Source of the DNA: Gammaproteobacteria bacterium
GTDB taxonomy: Bacteria; Pseudomonadota; Gammaproteobacteria; Arenicellales; JAJDZL01
Length of the DNA: 51,261 nucleotides
Assembly: GCA_022824665.1 (NCBI GenBank)
Contig: JAJDZL010000223.1
Coordinates: 1 to 51,261 of the forward strand
Direction: 5' to 3'
The notes below the pieces were generated by a model. It saw nothing but the letters and a program-made list of their open reading frames with translations, was not told the origin of the DNA and did no database searches. A program made the position numbers and the translations under genes. This document shows positions 2,078 to 45,383 of this stretch, one piece after another. Position 1 is the stretch's first letter. Each line of letters opens with the position of its first letter.

Positions 2078-3670
2078 ATGAACAATTCAAATAATCGTAT
2101 TTTTGATCTAGCAAATTCCAGGCTTTCAAGACGCAAGTTTCTGCAGGCATCGGGTGCGCTTGGTGTGGCCGGTGCTGCGCCTGGTCTTTTTGTTGGTTCA
2201 GCTGCACAGGCGGCTGCCCCGTCCATGGGCGGCCATCTTCGAATTGCGATGGTCCACGGATCATCAACCGATTCGCTAGACCCGATTCGTTTAATCAGTT
2301 CACACACCACAAAGCTGTTTTACTCGGTCCACAGTACACTGACAGAGATTGCGGCTGACGGTCAGTTGATGCCATTGCTTGCTGAATCTTATGAAACGGG
2401 TGCGGATCCATCTGAGTGGATTTTTAAACTCCATTCCGGTGTGACGTTTCACAATGGCAAGAGTTTGACTGCCGATGACGTTATCGCATCGCTCAACCGC
2501 CACCGCGGTGAGGATTCGGCGTCTTCCATGAAGTCAATTATCGAAGGCATCGAGTCAATCACAAAAGATGGAGATCTGGTCGTCAAGTTCAAACTGAGCA
2601 CGCCCAGTGTCGATTTTCCGGTCGTTCTAAGTGATGCGGTGCTGTCGATATTGCCATCTACCGACGGAAAAATTGAAACGTTCGATGTTGGCTGTGGACC
2701 TTATATGCTGGAAGCTTTTGAACCAGGCCAATACTCGCATTACCGGCGAAATCCGAATTCGTATCTCTCGGACCGGGCGTATGTGGAGACTGCGGAGTTG
2801 TTGACAATCGCTGATTCGACTGCGCGCCAGAACGCCCTGGTTACCGGTGTTGTCGATGTAATCAGTGATGTTGATGCGAGTACCGCAGGGTTACTTGGCC
2901 GCAATGACAACGTTGAAATTCTGAACGTTACCAGCACGCAACACTTTACGTTTCCCATGCGTACCGACCTGCCACCGTTTGACAACAATGACGTACGAAT
3001 GGCACTCAAACTGTCAATCGATCGGGATGTGGTGCTCGACACAATTCTGAGCGGTTACGGGAGCCTGGGGAATGACCACCCCATTTCACCTGCCAACCGC
3101 TTTTTCAACACGGAGCTTGAACAGCGTGTCTATGATCCGGAGAAAGCCAAATGGCATCTCAAGCAGGCCGGAATGAGCAACCTCAAGGTTGAGTTGAGTG
3201 CGTCAGACAGTCTTTATGAAGGCTGCGTAGATACCGTGGTGCTGTTCAGCGAGCATGCCAAAGCTTCGGGTATTGAGCTGGTGCCGAAGCAGGTTCCAGA
3301 CGATGGTTACTGGTCCGATGTCTGGCTCAAACATCCATGGTGCGCAAGCTACTGGAGCGGCCGACCGACCGAAGACTGGATGTTTACCCAGGGCTATTCG
3401 GCCGAGTCGAACTGGAACGAAAGTTATTGGAAAAATGATCGCTTCAATGAGCTGCTGTTGGCTGCCAGGGCCGAGTTGGATGATGACAAGCGTCGTCAAA
3501 TGTATTGGGAAATGCAGGCGATCACCCGCGATGACTGCGGTTCTGTTATCCATGCCTTTGGAGACCATATCATGGCGCACTCGCATAACGTCGTCGTCCC
3601 AGATCAGGTGGCAGGCAACTGGGACCTTGACGGGTTCAAGTTGATGCAGCGCTGGTGGATGAAAGCTTAG
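2078..3670 (+). CDS. ABC transporter substrate-binding protein, family 5, paralogue of the preceding gene, Tat-exported
   Basis: SRRKFLQASGALGVAGAAPGLFVGSAAQA Tat signal; co-linear with the 188-1780 protein and identical over long C-lobe stretches. Confidence 0.9.
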   Translation: MNNSNNRIFDLANSRLSRRKFLQASGALGVAGAAPGLFVGSAAQAAAPSMGGHLRIAMVHGSSTDSLDPIRLISSHTTKLFYSVHSTLTEIAADGQLMPLLAESYETGADPSEWIFKLHSGVTFHNGKSLTADDVIASLNRHRGEDSASSMKSIIEGIESITKDGDLVVKFKLSTPSVDFPVVLSDAVLSILPSTDGKIETFDVGCGPYMLEAFEPGQYSHYRRNPNSYLSDRAYVETAELLTIADSTARQNALVTGVVDVISDVDASTAGLLGRNDNVEILNVTSTQHFTFPMRTDLPPFDNNDVRMALKLSIDRDVVLDTILSGYGSLGNDHPISPANRFFNTELEQRVYDPEKAKWHLKQAGMSNLKVELSASDSLYEGCVDTVVLFSEHAKASGIELVPKQVPDDGYWSDVWLKHPWCASYWSGRPTEDWMFTQGYSAESNWNESYWKNDRFNELLLAARAELDDDKRRQMYWEMQAITRDDCGSVIHAFGDHIMAHSHNVVVPDQVAGNWDLDGFKLMQRWWMKA

Positions 3671-25756: not shown

Positions 25757-27121
25757 ATGACTAGGAAGGTTGCCATTATCGGTGCGGGGGTTTCCGGGCT
25801 CGGTGCTGCGTGGGCGCTTAATAAGCATCCCGACAAATTTGATTTTCGATTGTTCGAGGCGAATGCCCGAATTGGCGGTAACGCTGTCACGGTCGATATG
25901 TTGCAGGAAGACGGAACTTCTATCCCGTTTGATATTTCAGTGACCGCGTTTATCCCCTCCGCATATCATCACATTGTGCTGTTCTTGCAACAGCACGGAA
26001 TTGACATATGCGATACCCGCTTCAGTTACAGTGTGAAGTATCGCGGCAGCATTTACGCGCATGATTTAGATTCCGACATCAAGCGGCAGCTGCAGCCAGA
26101 GATAAGAAAGTTTCAGCAGCTGCTGAGATTCCTTAAATTGATGGGGCGTCTCAATCGGTCCACATCAAGAGTGCTGAATGCGATTAACCCGTTCAACTAC
26201 GTCAGTATGGGTGCGCTGCTCAACATGGGCCGGTTTTCCGGGGACTTTCGGTACAAGGTTCTAAAACCCATGTTCGTCAATTTCCTGATGGCGACCAACG
26301 TATTCGACATGCCCGCATCTCTTTTCACTCGATATCTTGAGTTTTTTGATATTGAATGCGCAACCCCGATGCAAACCTGGGATGGCGGTACGCGTCGAAT
26401 CTACCAAAATATGTCGGCTGATTTCAAGGAAAGGATCTACCTTGAACGGCCAGTTCGAAAAGTGCATCGGCAAAAATCCGGTGTGGTTATCGAAGATGAA
26501 GATGGCGATTCAGAATCATTTGACGACGTGATTTTTGCATGCAATGCGAATCAGGCTTTGATGTTGCTGGACAAACCGACTTTACTGGAAAGCTCGATTC
26601 TGTCTTCAATTCGCTATGAGAGTGAACTGCACAATCATACGATTGTGCATTCGGATGCCTCACTGTTGCCGGACAATTCGGCTAATCCGCTGACCACCCG
26701 CAGCAACCACATTGAGCAATATGGCGCGCGACCGGATAACTATGAAATTACATATATCATGCACAATCAACAGCCTTGGGTGAACCGATCAGACAAACCA
26801 TGCCTCGTAACCTACAATCCAGTCAACCCGATCGACGAGAACAAAATCATCAAGAAGTGGTGGTTTCAACATGTTGTACACGATGTGCGACAGGTGGTTC
26901 TCCTGATTCCTGCGTTTCGCTTGATTCAGGGCAGACGACGCACCTGGTACTGCGGTGCACATACGCTGATAAACAGTCAGGAGACCTGCTTTGTTACAGG
27001 CCTGCTTGCAGCGCGACAGCTTGGCGCAGATTACCCCTTTGAGGACCCTGAAGCGCGTCGGTGGTTCAACTTTTACGGGCGAGTGATGTACGGTTGGCGA
27101 TTCAGAAAGGCGTCATCGTGA
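25757..27121 (+). CDS. NAD/FAD-dependent oxidoreductase (COG2907-like, amine-oxidase fold)
   Basis: KVAIIGAGVSGLGAAWALNKHPDKFDFRLFEANARIGGNAVTVD dinucleotide-binding motif; WDGGTRRIYQNM. Confidence 0.82.
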   Translation: MTRKVAIIGAGVSGLGAAWALNKHPDKFDFRLFEANARIGGNAVTVDMLQEDGTSIPFDISVTAFIPSAYHHIVLFLQQHGIDICDTRFSYSVKYRGSIYAHDLDSDIKRQLQPEIRKFQQLLRFLKLMGRLNRSTSRVLNAINPFNYVSMGALLNMGRFSGDFRYKVLKPMFVNFLMATNVFDMPASLFTRYLEFFDIECATPMQTWDGGTRRIYQNMSADFKERIYLERPVRKVHRQKSGVVIEDEDGDSESFDDVIFACNANQALMLLDKPTLLESSILSSIRYESELHNHTIVHSDASLLPDNSANPLTTRSNHIEQYGARPDNYEITYIMHNQQPWVNRSDKPCLVTYNPVNPIDENKIIKKWWFQHVVHDVRQVVLLIPAFRLIQGRRRTWYCGAHTLINSQETCFVTGLLAARQLGADYPFEDPEARRWFNFYGRVMYGWRFRKASS

Positions 27122-27526: not shown

Positions 27527-28573
27527 ATGCGATCTGCTCGAAACAAACAGTTCCTATCTAAATCCAACAAACGGCAGAGCTTTCGTTCTCTTGCAGATCT
27601 GCGACCCGATCAGGTTGAACCCTCGATTCATCAGTACATCGAGATTTTTGAAGCTGGTTCAGAACACAGTAAGCATCACTATCAACAGTATGTCGATCAA
27701 TATTACAACCTGGTTACCGATTTCTATCGTTTTGGCTGGGGTCAATCCTTCCATTTTGCGCCGCGACAAAAGGGCGAGAGTGTCGAGGCTGCAATGCTCA
27801 GGCATCAGCATTTTCTCGCTGACAAGCTGTCACTAAAGCCCGGCATGCAAGTGCTGGATGTTGGGTGCGGAGTCGGTGGACCGATGCACGCCCTGGCACA
27901 ATATTGCGGCGCCAGTTTTATCGGGATCACCATTAATGCATACCAGATTAAATGTGCCAAAGTAAACACTCAGGACGTTCATTCACGATGCCAATTCATC
28001 CAGGGTGACTTCATGCAAATTCCAACCGCTGCTGATTGTTTCGATAGCGCGTATGCGCTCGAGTCGATTGTTCACGCTCCAAACAGGGCAAAAGCGTTTC
28101 AGGAGGTGTTTCGAGTCCTTAAACCTGGCGGCTGTTTTGCGGGCTACGAATGGTGCATGACTGATCTTTTTGATTCGGGCAATGCAAAGCACATAAGAAT
28201 CAAGAAACAAATCGAAATGGGTGATGCATTGTCAGGTATAGGGCATACATCAGAAGTTCGCGATGGTTTGCTGGCAGCAGGGTTTGAACTGCTTGAGGCT
28301 CGGGATTGCGCTCTGGAAGCTCACCTGGATATACCCTGGTACCGTGCTTTACAAGGTCGCGATTTCAAACTTCGCAGTATTCCACGTTCACCTGCGGGAC
28401 GCGCATTAACGAATATCGTGGTGAGAGTTGGAGAAAGGCTGCGGCTATTTCCGAAAGGTACCGCGTTAGTCAGCACTGTGTTGAATATGGCGGCAGACAC
28501 GCTTGTTGAAGGCGGTAAATCCGGAATATTTACGCCCGCGTATTTTTTTCTGGCTCGCAAACCGGAAAACTGA
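27527..28573 (+). CDS. Sterol 24-C-methyltransferase-like SAM methyltransferase (copy 1)
   Basis: YYNLVTDFYRFGWGQSFHFAPR (sterol-binding region I type), VLDVGCGVGGPMHALA (SAM motif), YALESIVHAPNRAKAFQEVFRVLKPGG, YEWCMTDLFD, C-terminal YFFLARKP. Confidence 0.85.
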   Translation: MRSARNKQFLSKSNKRQSFRSLADLRPDQVEPSIHQYIEIFEAGSEHSKHHYQQYVDQYYNLVTDFYRFGWGQSFHFAPRQKGESVEAAMLRHQHFLADKLSLKPGMQVLDVGCGVGGPMHALAQYCGASFIGITINAYQIKCAKVNTQDVHSRCQFIQGDFMQIPTAADCFDSAYALESIVHAPNRAKAFQEVFRVLKPGGCFAGYEWCMTDLFDSGNAKHIRIKKQIEMGDALSGIGHTSEVRDGLLAAGFELLEARDCALEAHLDIPWYRALQGRDFKLRSIPRSPAGRALTNIVVRVGERLRLFPKGTALVSTVLNMAADTLVEGGKSGIFTPAYFFLARKPEN

Positions 28574-28600: not shown

Positions 28601-31600
28601 TCAAGACGCCGTATCAGGCAGATTTACGGCAGTGCTAACGAGTGGTTCATACGAACTTTGACGTGCTCTGCATCGCTGCTCATAGAGTCCCAGCGCGTGC
28701 AAGGGAAAATATTGTCGGTACAAAACGTAATCCAAAAGAGCAGTACGAAAGAATACGCCGGTCATGTCCTGCTTTGGCCATGATCCATCGGCCTGCTGGG
28801 TACTGAGCAGGTGACTGGCACCCCGTGATATCGCATGCCAGTCGGGATCTTTTGCCTCAAGCAATGCGATCAGCGCCCATGCGGTTTGGATGACCTGACT
28901 TTCCGAATGCGCAACGTAGCGACCGGTTCTACAGCCGCTGTAGTGTTCACCCCAGCCTCCATCGTCGCGCTGGTGCTCCAGCAGCCACTGACAAGCCAGT
29001 CGCAATGCCGAGTCACCGGGTTTCGCACCGGTGGCTATCAGTCCCCGGATTCCGAACAGGGTGCCATAGATATATTGGATGCCCCAAACGCCGCGCCACG
29101 ACCCATCACTCAGCTGTGTTCTGCGAAGCCAGACTGCGCCCCGCGAGATGGCGGTTTGCGCCGCCTGATCCACAATTTGTGGGAAGTGCTGCCGGCAGGC
29201 CGCGAGTGCTGCCACAGAGGAAGCGGTACATTCAACAAAGGAGTGTTCAGTCATCGACTCGCCGAACATCTCACTTGGGTTCAGCCACTCAAGGTTCAGT
29301 CTTGTTCGCCGGGCCTCATAACTGCCAAAACCACCATCGCGGTTTTGGCCGCGCAAAATAAACTGAATTCCTTCACTGAGTACGCCTGTATCAACGCCTG
29401 CGTCCCGTTCGGCAATTAATCCGAGCATTGCTTCTGCAGTACAGTCTGTAACCGGCCAGCCATGCCAGCCTCCAGCGAAACACCAACCGCCTTTGGGATC
29501 ATTCCGGTAGGCATCCCGATACCCTTTGAAACTGCTGGTTATCTGGTTTCGATACAAAAAATCCGTCGCACGCTGCATCGCTGTCTGTAGCTGTTTTGAG
29601 CGATCGACGACTGCCAGAGACTGCAGTATAAACCCGGTGTCCCAAGAAGCACTTCTTGCCCCGGTGACCCGCGTGCCGTCTCGTTCATCCTCCCAAATCC
29701 ACCCTTCCAGTTGTGCGAGCGCCTGTTGGAGATCCAGGTCATTTTGATCGTGTAGCCAAATCGCGAGGATGTTTAGCAGTCCGCTCACTGGAGAGATACT
29801 CGTATGGTCGGTAGTTCGCAGCTCCCACCGGATGCGTTTTGTCAAATCGCTCACGCACCGGGCACGTAGTTTATCGGAGTGCAGCCAATTGTAAATTCTC
29901 GACAATCGGTAACCGAACCTCAGCGACATACTGGGTCGAAAAAGAAGATCCTCACTTCGAAGGCTATTTCGAGTTGCGGAAAATTTGACATTTTCGAATC
30001 CCTGAGGATATAGCTCAGCGCGCAGTTCAGTTGTAATATCAGTTACTTGGGCCTGATGCTGATGGGAGTATATGACTGCCATTGCCATGTATATCATTCG
30101 GGTGTGGCAGTACCAGTTTGAGGGGTGAAGAGCGATTCTGTGCGGCAGACACCACAACTCGGGCAAAATTGCGTGAACACCGCGCCAATCGTATAAATTG
30201 AGCAGTGCCAGCCAGAATTTCCCCCAACTTGGGATATTGAGCACTCCTTCAGTCAGAATAAATTGCTGCGCTGATGCGATTAAGGGGTCATCGCGCTGAG
30301 TACCTAGCAATCTCGCCGCGAGATAAACCAGGGTTGTAACAAAAAGATGAGGTCCCGAGTGTTCGTGCATTCCCCATAAACCGCTTGCGAGTTGGGTTTT
30401 CTCGAAATTGTGCAATATTAATTGCTGACGGCGAGGCTCTAGCGGCCGCCCGATGATGTGATGCAGCAGTACGTACTGAGCACTTAGCATCGGACACCAC
30501 ACCATCTCACCTTCCCAACTTCCATCGGTGTTTTGAAATTTCAAAAGACGTGTGACCGCTTTGTTCAAAGCCTCACCGACCTGCGGTGAGTCAAATTTCT
30601 TTCGATCTGGTTGCGGTTGACTGTCAGTTTGTGCCAGAGAGACCAGCAATGCTCGTGATAGGGACTTGACGATGCGCGCATTTTTTTTGCTGTCCGCTTT
30701 TGCATTCAAACGTTGTTCCAAAATACCTCGCACCAGCCATGTCAGTCTTACCAAGATCGAGCGAACGATGTGGTAGCTTCGGTGCCAGGCGAATTCATGG
30801 TGCGATTTTGGAATCTGCCTGCCGATTGTTTTACCGACGATCGATGTGAACGCCAGGGAAAGGTGTGTAACTGATGGGTCTTCGCAGGCAAGCAGCTTTA
30901 CGGTTCGGTCGCGAGCCTTTGAACCTGTTAGCCAATATTTATAAATTGAGTTTCTAAGTTCAGTCGATTCGAGTCGATGGTCGGCAAAAACTTCGTAGAG
31001 TCCGATTGCCAGCAGTTCTGGACCGCGGGTTGCCAAAACTCGTTTCGAGATGAATTTACGAAAGTTTTCCGCTTTAGCCAAATCGATTGCATCACCAAAA
31101 CCAAGGGTCATCCCCACCGCGGTCATGGGATGATAGTTTCCTGCAGCATCGCCAATCAGCACACGACGGGAGACTCCATTCGTGGTGCGCAGTCTTAACT
31201 CATTGGTTGCGGCGTAGAATTTGTCCGACCGCAGTGCTTTAATAAATCCTGGTCTAAGCGATTGAGGCAAAAATTCGGCATAGGACTCTGACAATAGTTT
31301 TACTCGGTCACGTGGAATCCAATGATTCAGGGGTACATCGATGATTATCCGGATGCGTTGATTTGCCAATTGATACACAAGAATTGGCCCTGGGCCGCCA
31401 AGTAAAACGTGCCCATAACCTGCAAAGGGTAATTCTGTTCCGGTAATCTCAACACCAACCATGCGCGAACAGATTCTTCGCTTGTTTGCAAGACCCAACG
31501 ACTTGCGTACCACCGAAGCACGTCCGTCTGCGCCGACAATTCTATCTGCCTGCAATGATTCAGCAACACCACTTTGGGAGAAACTGAGCTGTCCGTCTTC

Positions 31601-31999
31601 GACCATACAAACTCGGGCTGGTAGAAAAAAATCGATGCCTGGTTCATGCTCGACAGCCTTGTGAAGGGCTGAGACGAGCGTCGCATGCTCGCACGTCATA
31701 CCATATGATTCGGTCGGGTAGGGAAGCAGTATCGGCTCTGAGCGGTCTTCAGGAAATACGGCAAAACCTTTGCCCAAAGTGTGGTCGAATTCGTTGCCCA
31801 AATCAATGCCGACCTCGCGCAGCACTTTTAGCGCAGGTGGATGCAGCCATTCACCTGCGAGGCGTTTGGATGCCTTTGGATTCGCTTCAAGTAAAGCAAC
31901 GCGGGCACCCTTGTGTGCGTGGGCCAGTGCACATACGCTGCCGACTGGTCCGGCACCGACAATGGCAACGTCGTAGTGCCGAAGTGAATTCCTGTTCAT
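28601..31999 (-). CDS. Squalene epoxidase-like FAD monooxygenase fused to oxidosqualene cyclase (single 1132-aa polypeptide)
   Basis: N-terminal: VAIVGAGPVGSVCALAHAHKGARVALLEAN, AGEWLHPPALKVL, RVLIGDAAGNYHPMTAVGMTLGF. C-terminal: QW-type repeats (FQNTDGSWEGE, QNRDGGFGSYE, QLSDGSWRGVWG, QRDDGGWGEHY, QQADGSWP), WYCHTRMIYM, and VTDCTAEA, the OSC catalytic motif. No stop between halves. Confidence 0.88.
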   Translation of the reverse strand: MNRNSLRHYDVAIVGAGPVGSVCALAHAHKGARVALLEANPKASKRLAGEWLHPPALKVLREVGIDLGNEFDHTLGKGFAVFPEDRSEPILLPYPTESYGMTCEHATLVSALHKAVEHEPGIDFFLPARVCMVEDGQLSFSQSGVAESLQADRIVGADGRASVVRKSLGLANKRRICSRMVGVEITGTELPFAGYGHVLLGGPGPILVYQLANQRIRIIIDVPLNHWIPRDRVKLLSESYAEFLPQSLRPGFIKALRSDKFYAATNELRLRTTNGVSRRVLIGDAAGNYHPMTAVGMTLGFGDAIDLAKAENFRKFISKRVLATRGPELLAIGLYEVFADHRLESTELRNSIYKYWLTGSKARDRTVKLLACEDPSVTHLSLAFTSIVGKTIGRQIPKSHHEFAWHRSYHIVRSILVRLTWLVRGILEQRLNAKADSKKNARIVKSLSRALLVSLAQTDSQPQPDRKKFDSPQVGEALNKAVTRLLKFQNTDGSWEGEMVWCPMLSAQYVLLHHIIGRPLEPRRQQLILHNFEKTQLASGLWGMHEHSGPHLFVTTLVYLAARLLGTQRDDPLIASAQQFILTEGVLNIPSWGKFWLALLNLYDWRGVHAILPELWCLPHRIALHPSNWYCHTRMIYMAMAVIYSHQHQAQVTDITTELRAELYPQGFENVKFSATRNSLRSEDLLFRPSMSLRFGYRLSRIYNWLHSDKLRARCVSDLTKRIRWELRTTDHTSISPVSGLLNILAIWLHDQNDLDLQQALAQLEGWIWEDERDGTRVTGARSASWDTGFILQSLAVVDRSKQLQTAMQRATDFLYRNQITSSFKGYRDAYRNDPKGGWCFAGGWHGWPVTDCTAEAMLGLIAERDAGVDTGVLSEGIQFILRGQNRDGGFGSYEARRTRLNLEWLNPSEMFGESMTEHSFVECTASSVAALAACRQHFPQIVDQAAQTAISRGAVWLRRTQLSDGSWRGVWGIQYIYGTLFGIRGLIATGAKPGDSALRLACQWLLEHQRDDGGWGEHYSGCRTGRYVAHSESQVIQTAWALIALLEAKDPDWHAISRGASHLLSTQQADGSWPKQDMTGVFFRTALLDYVLYRQYFPLHALGLYEQRCRARQSSYEPLVSTAVNLPDTAS

Positions 32000-33414: not shown

Positions 33415-34509
33415 CTAATGAACAAACGGCAGCATTGAAAAACGCACCTGCCTGGTATAGCGTTCCCACAGAGCGCCGTACTTGGCGCGGCAGCGGCGTT
33501 CATCGCGCCGCGAACGGTGCCACAAAAGACCGGTCAGCCACACCGGCAAGATGTACGGCAGCCACGAGTCAAACCCGGCGGTTAAGGCAAACGCGAAATA
33601 GATACAGATCTCCCCGGTATAGTTCAGATGTCGCCCGATGCCCCAAAATCCAGACACCAGCAGACGCCCGTCCAGTGTGTGGGCCGGTCGCCCCCAAATC
33701 CGGGTTTCGGGATTGCGTTTGAAGCGATGTTTTTGCTCGTTGGCCCCGCGAAAAAGCCAGAAACCGAAGCAAAATAAAAGAACGAGCGCGATTGTCGCGA
33801 CGGGCGTCAGGTCCCCGGTTGGGTGGACCAGCCACCAACCAACGAAGCAATAAAAAAACGGCACCAGAACGTAATCTCCCCAGATCAGCATCCAGCCGAA
33901 GCGCTCACTGACCATGTCCCAGGTGTGGATCATGCCCTGTTCAAACTGAAAGTAATTCAGCACATATAGAAACGTAAAGGCCTGATAGAGAATCATGGCC
34001 ACGGTGAGTTCACCATAGGTATCGTACTGCACTGCGGCAAACGATGCATTGAGAAGCGCGAGGCCTATCAGTGAAGGGCGGTAGCTGAACAGTTTCAAAT
34101 CCACGCCAAGCAAGGTCGGGTTTGCATCTACCCCAAAGAAATAGCCGTGCCAGCCCCCGGACAGGACAGGTCGCGTGTGCCTCCCTCTGAAGTAAAGCCA
34201 GCTTGACATGGCGAATGCGAAAAGGTTAGCGACAACAAAGAGCGCAGCAAAGTGTGTGTACAACATTGAAAGTGAGAACCAACCCGCGCTGTGGGCAAGA
34301 CCTGCGCTCAAGACGGTAAGCAGGAACAGGGTCAGTCCGTTAAGTTTGTAGGTGTGTGATTTTCCGCTACTGTCGGGTCCTGATATCTGTTGACCGGGAA
34401 TAACGACAGAACCAACGAATAATGCACCGAGAAACGCCCCGCACATCAGTGCCGCGCTAAGCAGACCAGCACTTGTCAAAGATGAGAACAGAACGGCTGA
34501 ATCAGGCAT
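33415..34509 (-). CDS. ERG4/ERG24/DHCR7-family sterol reductase (probable C-14 reductase)
   Basis: Polytopic; LLVSGFWGIGRHLNYTGE and LLWHRSRRDERRCRAKYGALWERY match the sterol reductase family signatures. Confidence 0.9.
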   Translation of the reverse strand: MPDSAVLFSSLTSAGLLSAALMCGAFLGALFVGSVVIPGQQISGPDSSGKSHTYKLNGLTLFLLTVLSAGLAHSAGWFSLSMLYTHFAALFVVANLFAFAMSSWLYFRGRHTRPVLSGGWHGYFFGVDANPTLLGVDLKLFSYRPSLIGLALLNASFAAVQYDTYGELTVAMILYQAFTFLYVLNYFQFEQGMIHTWDMVSERFGWMLIWGDYVLVPFFYCFVGWWLVHPTGDLTPVATIALVLLFCFGFWLFRGANEQKHRFKRNPETRIWGRPAHTLDGRLLVSGFWGIGRHLNYTGEICIYFAFALTAGFDSWLPYILPVWLTGLLWHRSRRDERRCRAKYGALWERYTRQVRFSMLPFVH

Positions 34510-35596
34510 TTGTATTGCTGACTTTAGCTTCGCGAGTCAGGTATTCCTGCCACTTGCGAACGGTTACCTTTTGAAAGGCCTTAACTACCGGATTAAATTC
34601 AATAGGTGGCGCGTCCCAGTGCTGCTCATACCCTTGCTGCTCTGCTTCAACCGCGATCTTGTCCTGGGTCAGCAAAGGAACGATAAGCAAACGGTTGGAG
34701 ATCTTCAAAGCTGCGCTCATCGCCATGCGGGGAATTCGAACGGGCAGCAGGGGAACTTTTAGAGATTTGAAATAAAACAGGAAAAATACCCGGGTGGTGC
34801 GTTCATCGACCGGTAGTACGAAAAGCCAGTGTTTGATTGCATTATCGGTATTGGACCACTGATAGGGATACTCAAAACACAATTCCATCTGGTTGGTATT
34901 GAGATTTTTGTGGTCTACAAACAGCCTTGAGAAGCGCCCGCGCCCGACTTTTGTGTCATAGGAAAGGTGTACGTTGTCGCCGATGGTCTCGCAGCGCGTA
35001 AGGATAGCATCCTGAAAGGGCTGGTATTTTCGGTGCAGATGTGCGTGCGTGAAATCACTGACATTGTCGATCACCATCGAATGGTGTGCCGACCAGGTGA
35101 AGCTGAGCGGTACGCAGGCCCAACGATCAGACCCCTCAAGTTCTGGAATTTCCGGGATTTCCCGTTGTTCAGCGATTCCGGGGTTGCCGGGAAACAGCCA
35201 CACCAGACCATAACGGACCTTCACCGGATAGCTTCTGATTGAGGGTTTTATTTGTTCCTGTTCAGTACGCCCTTGCGGCATATCAGCGCGCCGACCGGTC
35301 TCGTCATACTGCCAGCCATGATATGCACAAACCAGTCGGCAGCCTTGAACCTCTCCAAGAGACAGTTTGACCTGGCGGTGCGCACAGCGATTCTCAAGTG
35401 CATAAAATGAACCGTCGACTGCTCGGTAAAGCGCAATGGAATGCTTCCAGAAAATCACTTCGACAACTGTTCCCGGTTTAATTCGATGTGTCTGTTCTAC
35501 GGCGTACCAGTAATCCGGGTCCAATCCAGTTGCGCGTGCTTGCTGGCGCAGGTTGCCTGCCTCTTCAAAATCCGGTGGTGCTCGATACGCGTTCAC
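34502..35596 (-). CDS. Rieske [2Fe-2S] oxygenase, SdmA-like (putative sterol C-4 demethylation)
   Basis: CAHRQVKLSLGEVQGCRLVCAYHGW Rieske motif; NVSDFTHAHLHRKYQ mononuclear-iron region; located in the sterol operon. GTG start in a GTGA overlap with the upstream gene. Confidence 0.82.
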   Translation of the reverse strand: MNAYRAPPDFEEAGNLRQQARATGLDPDYWYAVEQTHRIKPGTVVEVIFWKHSIALYRAVDGSFYALENRCAHRQVKLSLGEVQGCRLVCAYHGWQYDETGRRADMPQGRTEQEQIKPSIRSYPVKVRYGLVWLFPGNPGIAEQREIPEIPELEGSDRWACVPLSFTWSAHHSMVIDNVSDFTHAHLHRKYQPFQDAILTRCETIGDNVHLSYDTKVGRGRFSRLFVDHKNLNTNQMELCFEYPYQWSNTDNAIKHWLFVLPVDERTTRVFFLFYFKSLKVPLLPVRIPRMAMSAALKISNRLLIVPLLTQDKIAVEAEQQGYEQHWDAPPIEFNPVVKAFQKVTVRKWQEYLTREAKVSNTNA

Positions 35597-36756
35597 ATCG
35601 AACCTCCTTCAGGGGAAATTTGTATGCTTTCCTCAAGCGAAGAATTTTCGATTGGATCGGTGCTGTTCAGAACGGGCGACTTCGCAAGCGGATTCGTGAT
35701 CGCGTTTCGTTGGTGGTGAAATGCGTAAGCTTCATGAACTGCCGCGCGAATGCTGGTTGGCTGATAACCAAGATCCCGTTTGGCTTTTTCGAGATTTGCG
35801 TGCCGACATTGTTTCAGCAGCCGGATTGCCCCGGGCGTGAAGCGTTGCGGAAAGCTCGGGTGAAACCGGCTCAGATAGAAACTCGCAATTTCCGAGAACG
35901 CGAGCATCACGGGTGCGGGGACTCGCCGCGCCGGGCGCGCGATACCAGAGACCTCTTCAAACAGATCCAGAATTTCAGAGATGGTTTTGTATTCGCTGCT
36001 GAAGATGTACTTTTCGCCTGAGCGCCCATAGCGCATACACAAAAGATGCCCTTCGACAATGTCCCTTGCTGCTACAAATTCGAAGCCGCCGTCAATGTAT
36101 GCCCTGAGTTTACCATTGGTGTAGTCGCAAAGCGTTCTCCCCAAACGGGATGGCAAGAAGTCTGCGGCTCCAATCACCGCACAGCATGTTGCAACGATCA
36201 CATCCTGACCCTGTGCGGCAGCGCGCCAGCACTCGTGTTCAACCAGCGATTTGCTGCGCTCGTAGGGCATTGTGCGAACCATGGGATAGAACTGCAGTGT
36301 TTCATCGCTAGGTGCAGAAGGATTGTCCAGGTTATAGCCAACCGCGCTGAACGATCCGGTTACAACCACCCGGCCGGCGGCGGTTTCGCGTGCAGCTTTA
36401 AGTACATTGCGGGTGCCGTATACGTTGCACTCAAATATTTCCCGACGATGGGCGAGATTTCCTTCGATGGTTGAGATCTTGGCTGCAACGTGGTAAACTC
36501 CTTGACAGCCTTCCATTGCATTCGTGATGGAATGCAATTCACGGATATCGCCATAGCGACGCTCAACTGCCAGATTCTCCAGCCCTTCGTTATTGTCTTC
36601 GTGTCTCAGCAAAACCCGAACCCGGAATCCATCCTGAATTAGCCTGCGCACGAGATTTGCACCGACATGCCCGGCCGAGCCGGTAACGAAAACCGGTGTC
36701 ATCGATGTATTGTCAGGATTTTTCAGATCTGGTTGCATGTGCGAGTTCACTGACAT
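35593..36756 (-). CDS. NAD(P)-dependent 3-beta-hydroxysteroid dehydrogenase/NSDHL-like SDR, SdmB-like
   Basis: VFVTGSAGHVGANLVRRLIQDGFRVRVLLR, YERSKSLVE (YxxxK), 3beta-HSD/epimerase-like C-terminus; first gene of the sterol operon. Confidence 0.8.
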   Translation of the reverse strand: MSVNSHMQPDLKNPDNTSMTPVFVTGSAGHVGANLVRRLIQDGFRVRVLLRHEDNNEGLENLAVERRYGDIRELHSITNAMEGCQGVYHVAAKISTIEGNLAHRREIFECNVYGTRNVLKAARETAAGRVVVTGSFSAVGYNLDNPSAPSDETLQFYPMVRTMPYERSKSLVEHECWRAAAQGQDVIVATCCAVIGAADFLPSRLGRTLCDYTNGKLRAYIDGGFEFVAARDIVEGHLLCMRYGRSGEKYIFSSEYKTISEILDLFEEVSGIARPARRVPAPVMLAFSEIASFYLSRFHPSFPQRFTPGAIRLLKQCRHANLEKAKRDLGYQPTSIRAAVHEAYAFHHQRNAITNPLAKSPVLNSTDPIENSSLEESIQISPEGGSM

Positions 36757-38166: not shown

Positions 38167-40482
38167 ATGAAACTTGATTCACAAATTGCTTTTATTACTG
38201 AACGCCGTCTGCTGGCTTTCGTTTTTTCTTTGCTGCTCATTTTTGCTTTATCTGCAGGTGCTTCCAGGCTGCTGGTTGAGGACGTCGACTTTCGCAATCA
38301 TTTCAGTCAGGACGACCCTCGCTTGACTGCGCTTGAGCAATTTGAAGACACTTATGCGATTTCCGATACGGTTTTGGTTGTGGTCGCACCCGAGCGCGGC
38401 AACATATTCACGCGCGATGCGCTGCTGGTCGTTGAAAGTCTAACTGATCAGCTTTGGAAAACACCGTATGCGACCCGAATTGACTCGATAACAAATTTTT
38501 CGCACAGTGAAGGCATTGAAGATGACTTGATCGTTGAACCGCTGGTCAGCGATGCGGGTTCTTTAAGCGACAGTGATTTGGCGCGAATAGAGCAGATCGC
38601 GCTCGGCACCCAGGAAATTGCTGGTCGACTGGTTTCCCGAGACGGTTTGGTTGCCGGATTGGCGGTGAGCTTTGCAATGCCGGACGATAGTCGGCAGCAA
38701 GTTAAATTGGAGGTTGTTGACGTTCTCAACGCGAGAATTGATGAGTTTCGGGAGAAGCATTCGAATTTTCAATTTCACCTGGTTGGAGAACTTCTGCTTA
38801 ATCGTGCGATTAGCGATGCGCTGGTAGAGGACTTCAGCATCCTGGGACCGATTTCCCTGGGCACCATGCTGCTTGTGACGATTATTGTGCTGCGCTCGAT
38901 TTGGGGGACAATTGCCATTATCCTCATGGTGATGACAGTTGTGCTTTCTTCACTGGGCTTTACCGGCTGGATGGGGATGAAATTTTACGGTGAGAGCGGT
39001 GCTGGAGTATTTGTACTGATGGCAATCACCGTCGCGCATTGCGTGCACGTCATCGAGGCGGTGCTGTCAGGCTTGCGGCTGGATTTGGAACGAAAACAGG
39101 CTATTTCCCAATCATTGCAACAAAACGTGTGGCCTGTATTCCTCACCTCCGTCACGACGGCGATTGGATTTCTCAGCTTGAACTTTTCTGACATGCCGCC
39201 GTTCCGGGTGATGGGCAATATGGTGGCATTTGGTTCGCTCTTTGCATTTTGTCTGTCGGTTACTTTTCTGCCCTTCATTCTTTCAATCATGCCGTTGCGC
39301 GCCCGCTCTGAGCGCAGGGGGAAGACAGACCTAATTGATCGTCTCGGTCAGTTTGTGGTGTCCCGTCATCTCTTCCTTATCGTGTCCTTCGGCGCGGTAG
39401 TCATTGTGTTGCTGGCAGGTATTGCGCGGATAGAACTTGACGAAAACCCTCTTAAACTGCTTGACGACAGTTATGAGTATCGACGCTCAACGGATTGGGT
39501 AACAGACAACTTTAGCGGTCTCGAGCCATTTGAGTATTCGCTAAATTCCGGGCGAGAAGGGGGCATCAATGATGTCGGGTATCTTAATCAGGTTGATTCC
39601 TTTGCAAACTGGTATCGGGCGCAGCCTGAAGTCGCCCATGTCTTTGCAGTTACTGACATTATTAAACGGCTCAATAGAAGCCTAAATGGCGATGATCAGG
39701 ATTACTACCGTATTCCGGACAATTCCAATCTTGCCGCCCAGTACCTGCTGCTGTACGAGTTTTCTTTGCCGGTTGGTCTTGATCTCAACAATTTAATTGA
39801 TGTGGAGCGTGCCGCGACGCGTTTAACCGCCGTGCTGGACGACTTGTCAGCCAATGAAAAAATAGCACTCGATCAACGCGCGCGAGCGTGGCTGCAATCA
39901 AACGCTCCCGACCTGGAGACCAGTGCGACGGGTGTGGCTATCGTTGGGGCTCATTCCATCAATAGAAACATTGTGTTCATGCTGATCGGCACCATTACTG
40001 CAATGGGGATAGTTTCTTTTCTTTTATTTTTCGTCTTCAAAAGCCTGCGATTTGGATTGATCAGTCTAATTCCGAATTTCTTTCCCGCAGCCATGGCGAT
40101 GGGTCTTTGGGGATATCTGATTGGAGAGATCGGTGTCTCTGCCGCGGTGGTTACCGCAATTGCGTTCGGCATTATCGTAGATGACACAATACACTTCATG
40201 ACAAAATATTTGGCCGGCAGAACAATGGGGTTTACACCATCTGAGTCGATTCAATCGGCGTTCAATACAGTCGGTAAGGCGCTGGTTGCGACAACTGTTA
40301 TTTTCGGATTGGGTTTTATTGTGTTTGGCGCATCAGCAATGGCTAATAATCAGGCACTTGGCTTGCTTATGGGTATTACGGTCGTTGTTGCATTGTTGGC
40401 TGATTTTTTGTTTCTTCCGCCACTGTTGATCGTTCTCGACCGCAGGAAACCAAATCAGGAAACTAAACAAAGTACGGGTTAA
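38167..40482 (+). CDS. RND superfamily (MMPL-like) transporter, putative sterol/lipid exporter
   Basis: 771 aa with two TM-bundle/periplasmic repeats; GVFVLMAITVAHCVHVIEAVLSGLR, VTAIAFGIIVDDTIHFMTKYL. Confidence 0.88.
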   Translation: MKLDSQIAFITERRLLAFVFSLLLIFALSAGASRLLVEDVDFRNHFSQDDPRLTALEQFEDTYAISDTVLVVVAPERGNIFTRDALLVVESLTDQLWKTPYATRIDSITNFSHSEGIEDDLIVEPLVSDAGSLSDSDLARIEQIALGTQEIAGRLVSRDGLVAGLAVSFAMPDDSRQQVKLEVVDVLNARIDEFREKHSNFQFHLVGELLLNRAISDALVEDFSILGPISLGTMLLVTIIVLRSIWGTIAIILMVMTVVLSSLGFTGWMGMKFYGESGAGVFVLMAITVAHCVHVIEAVLSGLRLDLERKQAISQSLQQNVWPVFLTSVTTAIGFLSLNFSDMPPFRVMGNMVAFGSLFAFCLSVTFLPFILSIMPLRARSERRGKTDLIDRLGQFVVSRHLFLIVSFGAVVIVLLAGIARIELDENPLKLLDDSYEYRRSTDWVTDNFSGLEPFEYSLNSGREGGINDVGYLNQVDSFANWYRAQPEVAHVFAVTDIIKRLNRSLNGDDQDYYRIPDNSNLAAQYLLLYEFSLPVGLDLNNLIDVERAATRLTAVLDDLSANEKIALDQRARAWLQSNAPDLETSATGVAIVGAHSINRNIVFMLIGTITAMGIVSFLLFFVFKSLRFGLISLIPNFFPAAMAMGLWGYLIGEIGVSAAVVTAIAFGIIVDDTIHFMTKYLAGRTMGFTPSESIQSAFNTVGKALVATTVIFGLGFIVFGASAMANNQALGLLMGITVVVALLADFLFLPPLLIVLDRRKPNQETKQSTG

Positions 40483-40666: not shown

Positions 40667-42658
40667 TTACACCGGTAATTCGCGTCTTTGTTCGGTGATG
40701 CGAAACTTCAATTTCCGATTTGGCGACATCGATGGTAATGGATCAAAACCCAGCTTATAGTTGGCCGGTGTTAACTCAAGCGTGAAATAATGTGCAATCA
40801 TCATCAAGTTTATGGCCAGCTGGTCTTCCACGAAGTTTGCGCCGAGACACCTGTGAGTACCCAAACCATAAGGTGCGTAGCCCGGACTGCGATGCTCCTC
40901 GCGATCTGGTAAATAGCGATCAATGTCGAATTTGTATGGATCGGGAAACACACTGTCAATGTAGTGTGAAGCTGTTTGCGCTATATGGATTCTAGTACCA
41001 ATAGGCAACTCGAAGCCCTCGACCGTACAGGAATTCATTACGTTGCGAATAGACATTGGAATTATGGGATAAAGGCGTAAGCATTCCATTACGAAACGTT
41101 TTGTAACGTCAAACAACGAACTGCTGAACTGTTCAACATCCGGATCTCCATTTACAAACAATGCATCTGCTTCTCGGCTAATTTGGTTGTACATATCGGG
41201 TTGGCTAACCATGGCATAGAGTGCGAAACCCAATGCATCACCGACGTACACGCTGGCAAGCATTGGTGCTGAAAAATAAAATCCCAAGTTGGACTCCGGT
41301 AAAAACTGGGGATTGTTAGCATGGAGATTCAGCAGGTCATCAGCGAGATTTCTGGGACAGGCACTTCTCTGAGCGGGGGTATGGCTGCTTTGTACACGCT
41401 CCAGCGCCAAATTGACGGCCTTAGCCGCCCGCTTCATTCGCGGGGTATTCAGCATAAATTTTGGCAATACGTTTACAACATGGGTCATGAGTGCCCGCTC
41501 TTTGTACTTGATCAGTTGCGCCGAGATGTCCTGCGAATTAATGCCAATTAAAGTTGGCGCGATCTGTGCGTTAAGCAGCGACCGGCAAACTGTCGTTGCC
41601 TGTAGTGTGGAGCCCACTTTCCAATCTGCCATGAAACTGCGGATTTCACTCAAAATGACACCCATTGTTGCTCTGAATCTGTTTTTAGAGTAAGCTGAGT
41701 GCAAGGATTTACGAAGCTGGAAATGGTCTGCGCCATCAAGCGAGGGAAACAGTCCTGCAGCACCATAGACTTTTTCAAATTCTACAAAATAGTCTCGGCT
41801 TCTCAAGTAAATTCGCCCATTTCGATGTGCCCATCGGTTGCTCTCTGGTCCTGCTAAAAAGTACAGGGGTTCACGAAACGGCAGGCGAATCTGAAATACC
41901 GGTCCATACTCTTGCGCTAAATCACCAAATAGAGCTGGAATGTAGCCAATTCTTAAATTTCGGTTGAAAGGAAGTTTGTGCAGCGCAACGCTTGGAATTT
42001 TTTTTGTCAATCGGGAACGTCGAAGCAGGGGACTTGTAATGTTTTGTTTCACTGCAAGCGCGATTGACCGACCGATCAGTTCAATCTTGCAAATGGACTC
42101 AATGCGCGCTTGTGATTGCTCGTCCAGATCGTACATCAATCGAAACACATTGCACGCTTCACACAGGGAAACAATAATGGCGTCCTCTGGTTCTGGTATT
42201 TCGTTGGCGAAAATGCATTTACCAATTCGGCGTTTGATGTTGTTTGTGTACTGACTGTTTGGTGCAAGCGTCCAAAAATCGCCGTGGTGGTGCGTTAATA
42301 CTTTCAGTTGAACCAGTCGTTCCAGGGTTGAATCAATAATTGTCTCTGAATGTATCGATAGGTGTTCAATCCAGTAGGCGGTACTTCTTGGAGTTTTCTC
42401 ATTTGCAATTTTCTCCAAAATGGAATCCAGTATTGGTTCCCCCGTCGCGTCGCTGTTCAGCAGGTACAACAGATCTATGTCCGTATCAACGCGGTGTTGC
42501 AAGGACAGTTCCGCGAGTGCCGCGCCGGTTAGTGCACAGCTCAGGCTCCAACCGGGAACTTGGTAAAAATACCCCGATTCTTCATTGAGCAGCAGCAGAA
42601 TCAGCTCCGCCGCCAAATTCAACTTTGGCTGCTCAAGGCTGCTGGAATTACCGTTCAT
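40667..42658 (-). CDS. GPP34 (GOLPH3-like) domain fused to cytochrome P450
   Basis: N-terminal about 205 aa: LNLAAELILLLLNEESGYF..LSCALTGAALAELSLQHRVDTD..DATGEPILDSILEKIAN..DSTLERLVQLKVLTHH (GPP34 layout). C-terminal P450: ECLRLYPIIP (ExxR), YAPYGLGTHRCLGANF (heme Cys). Confidence 0.8.
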   Translation of the reverse strand: MNGNSSSLEQPKLNLAAELILLLLNEESGYFYQVPGWSLSCALTGAALAELSLQHRVDTDIDLLYLLNSDATGEPILDSILEKIANEKTPRSTAYWIEHLSIHSETIIDSTLERLVQLKVLTHHHGDFWTLAPNSQYTNNIKRRIGKCIFANEIPEPEDAIIVSLCEACNVFRLMYDLDEQSQARIESICKIELIGRSIALAVKQNITSPLLRRSRLTKKIPSVALHKLPFNRNLRIGYIPALFGDLAQEYGPVFQIRLPFREPLYFLAGPESNRWAHRNGRIYLRSRDYFVEFEKVYGAAGLFPSLDGADHFQLRKSLHSAYSKNRFRATMGVILSEIRSFMADWKVGSTLQATTVCRSLLNAQIAPTLIGINSQDISAQLIKYKERALMTHVVNVLPKFMLNTPRMKRAAKAVNLALERVQSSHTPAQRSACPRNLADDLLNLHANNPQFLPESNLGFYFSAPMLASVYVGDALGFALYAMVSQPDMYNQISREADALFVNGDPDVEQFSSSLFDVTKRFVMECLRLYPIIPMSIRNVMNSCTVEGFELPIGTRIHIAQTASHYIDSVFPDPYKFDIDRYLPDREEHRSPGYAPYGLGTHRCLGANFVEDQLAINLMMIAHYFTLELTPANYKLGFDPLPSMSPNRKLKFRITEQRRELPV

Positions 42659-42765: not shown

Positions 42766-43611
42766 TTATCTGACTCGTTTAAGTGCCGTACGGGTAAAGT
42801 CACCGAGGTCGAGGTCGGTGCCGAACTCGTAATCGGACCACTGTAGCACGGTACTCTTACCGGTAAGGTGGTTGGTCATTTTTATCACGGAAGCGCGCCA
42901 AAAACGGTCGAGGTATTTCTGATAGTTCTCCACAGACATAGTTTTGAGATGCTCTTCCCTGCGATCGAAAAAGTGGATTTCTATGGTACGAAATTCTTGC
43001 TGATCGAGCCAGACCTTTTGGCGGGAGTAGCCGGATTCTTCATTATCGGGGATGCGCTCCAGAACGTAGCAGTCTAGTTCTCCGCACGATTCTTCACCCA
43101 GGTATCGGTGGGAGTACTTCTCGACCTCAGCAGTGCCAAGGTCTTCATAGGAAAATTCGCTGCCCATAAAAGAACCGGATTGATTCGATGAACTGATGCC
43201 TTTAACGCGTTTCAGTGCTGGGAGATAGAGCCACTGCCGGTCTGGTTCTTCTTTATGTGCATGGACCAAAAACGCGGTTCCCTTGACATCAGCAGGACGG
43301 TCGAAAATGAACAATGTACGGTCGCCGTCTCCTTCCACCTCAATGACTTTGAGACGCACTGCACGTTTACTCTCCCGACCCTGCTTATTGCGCAGCGTCA
43401 TGGTTAGATTTGCAGAGAAATTGCCGAATCCTCTCTGACGCTCGCGAGATTCCGTTGCTATTTTGTGTCCTGATTCTTCCGCAGTTCCAGCTAGCAGGTC
43501 GGTGGACGACTGCACAGTAAACGGGCACAGGACAAGCATAGTTGCGAATGCCAAATTCAATATGTTTGCAAAATTGAAATGCAAAATTGATACTCCTTGT
43601 TTTAGACTCAA
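42766..43611 (-). CDS. LolA-like periplasmic outer membrane lipoprotein-sorting protein
   Basis: FIFDRPADVKGTAFLVHAHKEEPDRQWLYLPALKRVKGISSSNQSGSFMGSEFSYEDLG is the typical family core; N-terminal hydrophobic signal. Confidence 0.85.
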   Translation of the reverse strand: MSLKQGVSILHFNFANILNLAFATMLVLCPFTVQSSTDLLAGTAEESGHKIATESRERQRGFGNFSANLTMTLRNKQGRESKRAVRLKVIEVEGDGDRTLFIFDRPADVKGTAFLVHAHKEEPDRQWLYLPALKRVKGISSSNQSGSFMGSEFSYEDLGTAEVEKYSHRYLGEESCGELDCYVLERIPDNEESGYSRQKVWLDQQEFRTIEIHFFDRREEHLKTMSVENYQKYLDRFWRASVIKMTNHLTGKSTVLQWSDYEFGTDLDLGDFTRTALKRVR

Positions 43612-44345: not shown

Positions 44346-45383
44346 ATGAAACTTCGCAAATTATCCACCAGGTTAAAGCGCGTTTATCGCGGGTCGAACG
44401 TGGCTAGTCGGGTGCAGGTTTTCAACCAATGGACCGACAAGGCCTTCACTGAAGATTCTGGCGCCGCGGGCTACAATCACGTCGAAACCGTCAAGGAATA
44501 TTACGACCTGTGCAGCGAGTTCATGGCTTTCGGTTGGGGTGAATCCCTGCACTTTGCTCCACTGTCACCTAAGGAGAGTCTTGAAGACTCCAAGATCCGG
44601 CATCAGCGGCTGATGATAGACAAGCTGGAACTGCGGGAAGGTATGACAGTCATCGATGTGGGTTGTGGGTTTGGCGGCCCGATGCGTCGTGTCGTGACTG
44701 AGGCCGGTGTTCGGGTTACGGGGGTCAACAGCAACGAATTTCAGCTGGAAAAGGCTAAATCGCTTAATTTAGAAGCAAAGATCGATCAGCAGGTCGATTT
44801 GGTTGCGTGCAGTTTCATGGATATGAGCGTCATCGGAGACAACACTTTCGACCGGGGCTATGCGATCGAATCCACGTGCCATGCGCCGGACAAGGTGGGT
44901 GCGTTCGCTGAAATTTACCGTGTATTGAAACCCGGTGCCTATTTCTGGGGTCAGGAAATGTGTATAACGGACAGATTCAATCCGCATGACAGTCAGCACC
45001 GAGCCATCAAGCAGGAACTGATGCACGGTATAGCGCTCAAGGAAATCGCGACGATGGACGAGGTTGACCGAGCACTTGAAGTTGCCGGATTCCAGGTCAT
45101 TGAGGGGAACGACCATGCCGTCGGAGGGAATGCTCCGGCCACGCCGTGGTATCAGCCCATGGAGACCCGGCACGGAACGATTGGTAATGCCTTGCGTAGG
45201 ACTGCGCTGGGTCGCAAGGTGTTTCTCGGAGCATCCGGGCTAGCCGAGGCGGTGGGTTTCTTCCCGAAGGGCTCGAAACAGGTTCTGCGGCTGATGGATC
45301 GTACCGCCGAGGCCTATATCGCGGGCGGTCGGACAGGGATCTTCACGCCGTTGTATTGTTTCGTTGCGCGAAAACCGCTTTAG
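44346..45383 (+). CDS. Sterol 24-C-methyltransferase-like SAM methyltransferase (copy 2)
   Basis: YYDLCSEFMAFGWGESLHFAP, VIDVGCGFGGPMRRV, YAIESTCHAPDKVGAFAEIYRVLKPG, C-terminal YCFVARKP. Confidence 0.87.
   Translation: MKLRKLSTRLKRVYRGSNVASRVQVFNQWTDKAFTEDSGAAGYNHVETVKEYYDLCSEFMAFGWGESLHFAPLSPKESLEDSKIRHQRLMIDKLELREGMTVIDVGCGFGGPMRRVVTEAGVRVTGVNSNEFQLEKAKSLNLEAKIDQQVDLVACSFMDMSVIGDNTFDRGYAIESTCHAPDKVGAFAEIYRVLKPGAYFWGQEMCITDRFNPHDSQHRAIKQELMHGIALKEIATMDEVDRALEVAGFQVIEGNDHAVGGNAPATPWYQPMETRHGTIGNALRRTALGRKVFLGASGLAEAVGFFPKGSKQVLRLMDRTAEAYIAGGRTGIFTPLYCFVARKPL

Follow-up and report, generated by a model that had tools for sequence, protein, structure and literature searches.

What does a bacterial cytochrome P450 gain from being joined to a GPP34 domain, familiar chiefly from the Golgi protein GOLPH3 of eukaryotes, and is such a joined protein genuine? 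The question arises from a gene in a 51,261-nucleotide contig of a gammaproteobacterium (JAJDZL010000223.1, analysed whole and here called the window), which occupies positions 40667 to 42658 of the minus strand and encodes 663 residues from an ATG start. A sequence-only reading of this DNA had placed both domains in one open reading frame and pointed to an ExxR motif and a haem cysteine in the P450, and the domain models and alignments bear this out. The GPP34 model (PF05719) scores 96.6 bits against a cut-off of 29.1 over residues 15-191 (42086-42616, minus strand, as are all parts of the gene; E 2.7e-27), and the p450 model (PF00067) scores 119.6 bits against 22.8 over residues 244-640 (40739-41929; 2e-34). 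Between them runs a basic linker, residues 205-243 (41930-42046), with eight K/R, no D/E and an invariant Pro222. The protein has the P450 fold, the Cys ligand and the ExxR motif: E525-C-L-R528 (41075-41086) and the haem ligand Cys604 in G-L-G-T-H-R-C-L-G (40847-40849) are conserved in 90/90 aligned fusion sequences, with E525, R528, H602 and C604 each invariant. No transmembrane segment was found in the fusion protein, in which the top hydropathy window coincides with the I-helix.

Structure comparison assigns both halves in the same way. A search of the PDB with a profile built from the N-terminal domain alignment returns no proteins other than GOLPH3 and Vps74 (3kn1, E 2.5e-16), and the AlphaFold model of the GPP34 domain alone (pLDDT 89.8) returns GOLPH3/Vps74 chains in all eight of its matches at E<=0.001, including GOLPH3 9qpq (E 7.3e-08, TMq 0.77), confirming the proposed identity of residues 1-210. 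The model of the whole fusion has a mean pLDDT of 84.9, with low values at residues 1-9, 208-217 and the haem loop 601-606, and finds P450 structures, among them the Methylococcus CYP51 domain (6mcw, target TM 0.83), which is also the closest solved structure to the P450 half by sequence. A search of a viral structure library yielded ordinary P450s and nothing else.

The fusion is real. Among 118 relatives searched, the window's genome and 11 others, 12 genomes of the same taxonomic order in all, carry it at full length and in a single open frame, with 47-58% identity to the window's protein in those 11. A scan of GTDB species genomes gave at least 503 confirmed relatives in about nine phyla, the best 80 of which show 54-60% identity and span the fusion completely or almost completely; their MAG labels are Chloroflexota, Pseudomonadota, Gemmatimonadota, Actinomycetota, Nitrospirota, Latescibacterota, Acidobacteriota, Verrucomicrobiota, Myxococcota and Binatia, and in one Chloroflexota class 32 of 295 genomes have the gene. 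An even sample of 399 genomes from the phylum of the window yielded no further fusion genome at E<=1e-50. Carriage on plasmids was rejected, as no plasmid record matched 80% of the protein at a single site. Nothing in the window itself suggests that two genes were merged through an assembly or frameshift error, and the one sign of that kind is a remote GPP34-P450 homologue in another genome (L054:9974-12000, G002), which has a stop codon within its GPP34 part and a canonical I-helix; full-length copies in many independent assemblies exclude such an error. Two loci, L131 and L142, each hold two GPP34-P450 copies.

Most record labels of these bacteria resemble sponge-symbiont MAG sets (isolate labels RHO, COS, IRC, APA, SB06xx, jk18x, p16x), and RHO, COS, IRC and APA match host genera in PMC8163846. 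Judging provenance by these record labels, most fusion bacteria apparently live in sponges.

The I-helix (residues 462-482; 41213-41275) departs from the textbook P450, a feature absent from the sequence-only reading. The acid position, 471, is Tyr in 89/90 aligned fusion sequences, and position 472, Val in the window's protein, is Thr in 2/90 and something else in 88/90, so that Tyr-Leu/Val replaces the acid-alcohol pair in nearly all of the 90. With Y471-V472, the protein does not have the I-helix of a canonical monooxygenase. Some P450s without the I-helix Thr are nonetheless monooxygenases, so more than one chemistry is possible for the fusion P450. The window's own CYP51 has a canonical I-helix, AGQHTS. 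Peroxygenase P450s likewise do without the acid-alcohol pair (PMC10988616).

On a tree of P450 domains the fused sequences form one group (support 97/88, recovered in 96% of bootstrap trees; 86 in a larger quick tree), two basal members of which sit on long branches, and this grouping favours a single origin: the fusion probably arose once. Long, well-supported branches set it apart from the window's own CYP51, and membership of CYP51 was rejected. In the closest unfused P450s the I-helix reads A-G-L-D-T; of the basal fused ones, G002 retains D-T and L055 has H-T; intermediates read A-G-H-Y-T (the second copy in L142) and A-G-H-Y-L (L057), and the main clade typically A-S-V-Y-L-G-D. As the basal fused sequences retain D-T or H-T, the order read from the sequences is fusion first, then loss of the acid, then loss of Thr. 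In some alignments the gaps of the I-helix could be placed in more than one way; we preferred the ungapped, N-terminal-side reading, which gives the series A-G-L-D-T, A-G-H-Y-T, A-G-H-Y-L, A-S-V-Y-L, since steps of this kind appear in the tree. Phylum labels require 15 changes on the tree against a minimum possible 8, a scatter that fits horizontal transfer, with mis-binned contigs or paralogues as factors that could raise the count.

The gene lies between an RND/MMPL transporter with a sterol-sensing-domain match (38167-40482, plus strand) and, past a LolA-like (PF17131) gene, the sterol-methyltransferase-like SMT2 (44346-45383, plus; Pfam Sterol_MT_C). The LolA-like gene (42766-43611, minus) is directly upstream of the fusion on the same strand, and is adjacent to it in G001 and G067 too. 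A sterol operon is close by. On the minus strand lie a squalene epoxidase-oxidosqualene cyclase fusion (28601-31999), the CYP51-like P450 (31996-33384), an ERG4/ERG24-type sterol reductase (33415-34509), a Rieske oxygenase whose best match is SdmA, below the cut-off of the SdmA model (34502-35596), and a 3-beta-HSD/SdmB-like dehydrogenase, below the SdmB cut-off (35593-36756); the plus strand carries an FAD oxidoreductase of the amine-oxidase family (25757-27121), which recurs beside the fusion across phyla, and a second sterol-methyltransferase-like protein, SMT1 (27527-28573). With cyclase, CYP51, methyltransferase and SdmA/SdmB-like genes all in the window, the suspected link to sterol genes holds, and the fusion lies within about 25 kb of a sterol operon in G001, G003, G005 and G067 as well. 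The squalene epoxidase-cyclase fusion is itself one 1132-residue open reading frame, with 56-65% identity in relatives. Elsewhere in the window, two adjacent and very similar genes (137-1780 and 2078-3670) resemble, as read from their sequences, solute-binding proteins of transporters.

Co-occurrence with oxidosqualene cyclase (OSC), which the earlier reading proposed as a check, holds among close relatives and fails across phyla. OSC occurs in 11 of the 118 relatives, all 11 with the fusion, and thus in 11/12 fusion genomes (Fisher 1.3e-14, a value inflated by shared ancestry). Across 40 cross-phylum fusion genomes, OSC was found in 10, SMT in 30 and the FAD oxidoreductase in 32; at the thresholds used, 10 lack SMT and 8 the FAD enzyme, some of these absences perhaps being assembly gaps. 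A strict tie to de novo sterol synthesis is thereby rejected across phyla, and with OSC in only 10/40 the sterols on which the fusion works probably often come from other organisms. The neighbours that recur in 80 cross-phylum loci are a Rieske oxygenase (45), the FAD oxidoreductase (42), SMT (38) and an 827-residue RND protein with a sterol-sensing domain (32); the Rieske protein has a KshA_C domain and best matches 3-ketosteroid 9-alpha-hydroxylase. Sponge-symbiont SMTs add methyl groups to the side chains of sterols in vitro (PMC10070321), and Ircinia symbionts belonging to 10 phyla have clusters of steroid genes that bear signs of horizontal transfer (PMC9531527).

The GPP34 half is as well conserved as the P450 half (mean pairwise identities 62.3% and 62.5%), which indicates a working domain. 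The sequence-only reading had it bind a phosphoinositide and anchor the P450 there, and the GOLPH3-like fold would suit this idea. However, the four residues that we take to be the PI4P contacts of human GOLPH3 (W81, R90, R171, R174) align to P35, T44, E105 and I108, all four replaced, the gap placement near P35 being uncertain and a conserved W37 lying two residues off; a GOLPH3-type PI4P effector was rejected on this ground. The domain is also net acidic (16 K/R against 28 D/E), and inositol-phosphate synthase (PF01658) was not found in the window's genome, which is 87% complete. The phosphoinositide idea is therefore unsupported, and we consider it very improbable. To our knowledge, no lipid ligand is known for any bacterial GPP34 domain. 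A membrane-targeting role is plausible as a putative function. Alternatively, GPP34 might serve mainly as a protein-protein scaffold holding the P450 by a pathway or redox partner, just as GOLPH3 scaffolds glycosyltransferase tails and COPI. In favour of this are GPP34 fusions to an MFS transporter (L061) and to a multi-pass membrane domain (L065, L044), a standalone GPP34 in the same genome, and a conserved aromatic motif specific to the fusion, G-Y-F-x-Q-V-P-G-W, near the former lipid site; neighbours differ between genomes, with no universal partner, and we hold a mainly scaffolding role to be possible but rather doubtful. It concerns the GPP34 half alone and is compatible with either reading of the P450.

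Other fusions of these domains were seen. The same genus has a second kind of GPP34 fusion, at L044:11376-14057 (G000:C34), L043, L037 and L040, in which the partner is a multi-pass membrane domain that contains His and the gene is followed by one for a multihaem cytochrome c; at L040 the pair was identified by similarity and position alone. The MFS fusion lies at L061:1495-3357, and at L060:658-3186 a P450 is fused with cyclic-nucleotide-binding domains.

The sterol-gene neighbourhood across about nine phyla, together with the rebuilt catalytic site, points to the fusion as a real and undescribed part of sterol handling in these bacteria. Our proposal, to which we give a probability of roughly 45%, is a cytosolic, membrane-peripheral sterol-tailoring P450 that is docked by GPP34 and has non-canonical haem chemistry. 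In place of the transmembrane segment that anchors membrane P450s, GPP34 and the basic linker would dock the haem domain at the sterol-holding membrane or on partner enzymes. From the gene neighbours we infer a sterol substrate, probably side-chain-alkylated and received from the neighbouring methyltransferases, on which the P450 would act with the FAD oxidoreductase and a KshA-type Rieske oxygenase, the RND and LolA-like proteins transporting the products; the module would usually operate without de novo sterol synthesis. Given the lost acid-alcohol pair, the textbook NAD(P)H/O2 cycle is probably not run, and the enzyme would rely instead on a peroxide or hydroperoxide, on isomerase-type chemistry or on a different proton path.

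The sterol gene neighbours, the CYP51-type fold and the invariant Cys and ExxR would equally suit a conventional sterol oxidase, similar to the side-chain hydroxylases or C22-desaturases, in which O2 is activated via protons from substrate or water in spite of the altered I-helix. This reading seems to us somewhat unlikely, since the near-universal and seemingly stepwise loss of acid and Thr after fusion suggests selection for a different chemistry. The absence of the catalytic I-helix residues could also mean that this haem protein is non-catalytic and serves to sense or carry sterols, but the Cys ligand, ExxR and haem loop are conserved in 90/90 sequences and the gene sits among enzyme genes, which makes such a role improbable.

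If the sterol-tailoring reading is extended to the history of the protein, a GOLPH3-type domain would have been captured once by a bacterial P450, which then lost its O2-activation pair and spread across phyla within a sterol-tailoring module; sponge symbionts would use it to remodel sterols mostly not of their own making, possibly contributing to the unusual sterols of sponges. We offer this wider scenario tentatively. The fusion places a GOLPH3-type domain of prokaryotes in a concrete enzymatic setting, marks out a P450 subfamily by a conserved altered I-helix, and points to a sterol-modifying module common to several phyla, apparently in sponge symbionts. Two questions thereby become testable: which organisms produce the sponge sterols with modified side chains that serve as biomarkers, and what role GPP34 has in bacteria.

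In line with the earlier reading's remark that it knew of no such fusion, our search of the open-access literature, a scope that leaves aside subscription journals, found no description of a GPP34-P450 protein; several known systems share parts of it. GOLPH3/Vps74 has the fold of the N-terminus, by profile and structure (PF05719), and differs in its PI4P contacts and eukaryotic loop insertions, both absent here, whereas the domain here is fused to an enzyme. CYP74, CYP8A and CYP5A are self-sufficient P450s in which the usual O2-activation residues are not needed. The same is true of the CYP152 peroxygenases (PMC10988616), in this respect like the fusion; none of these four families was found to have a close sequence relation to it, its own motif being S-x-Y-L-G-D. 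SCO4440 of Streptomyces coelicolor is, as here, a bacterial GOLPH3-like domain; in the available part of that paper it is tied to peptidoglycan and wall-deficient cells, no P450 fusion is described, and the authors state that GOLPH3-like proteins had not previously been described in prokaryotes (PMC12402492). The Ircinia steroid clusters and bacterial SMTs have the same core genes as here, the available parts of those reports describing no GPP34-P450 gene (PMC9531527; PMC10070321), and unlike those clusters most fusion genomes tested here lack a cyclase. The Methylococcus CYP51-ferredoxin (6mcw/7jj1), which of the solved P450s is closest in sequence and also ranks with the best fold matches, has a canonical His-Thr I-helix, unlike the fusion, and about 20% identity to it; it too is naturally fused and comes from an organism that produces sterols, with a C-terminal ferredoxin there and an N-terminal GPP34 here.
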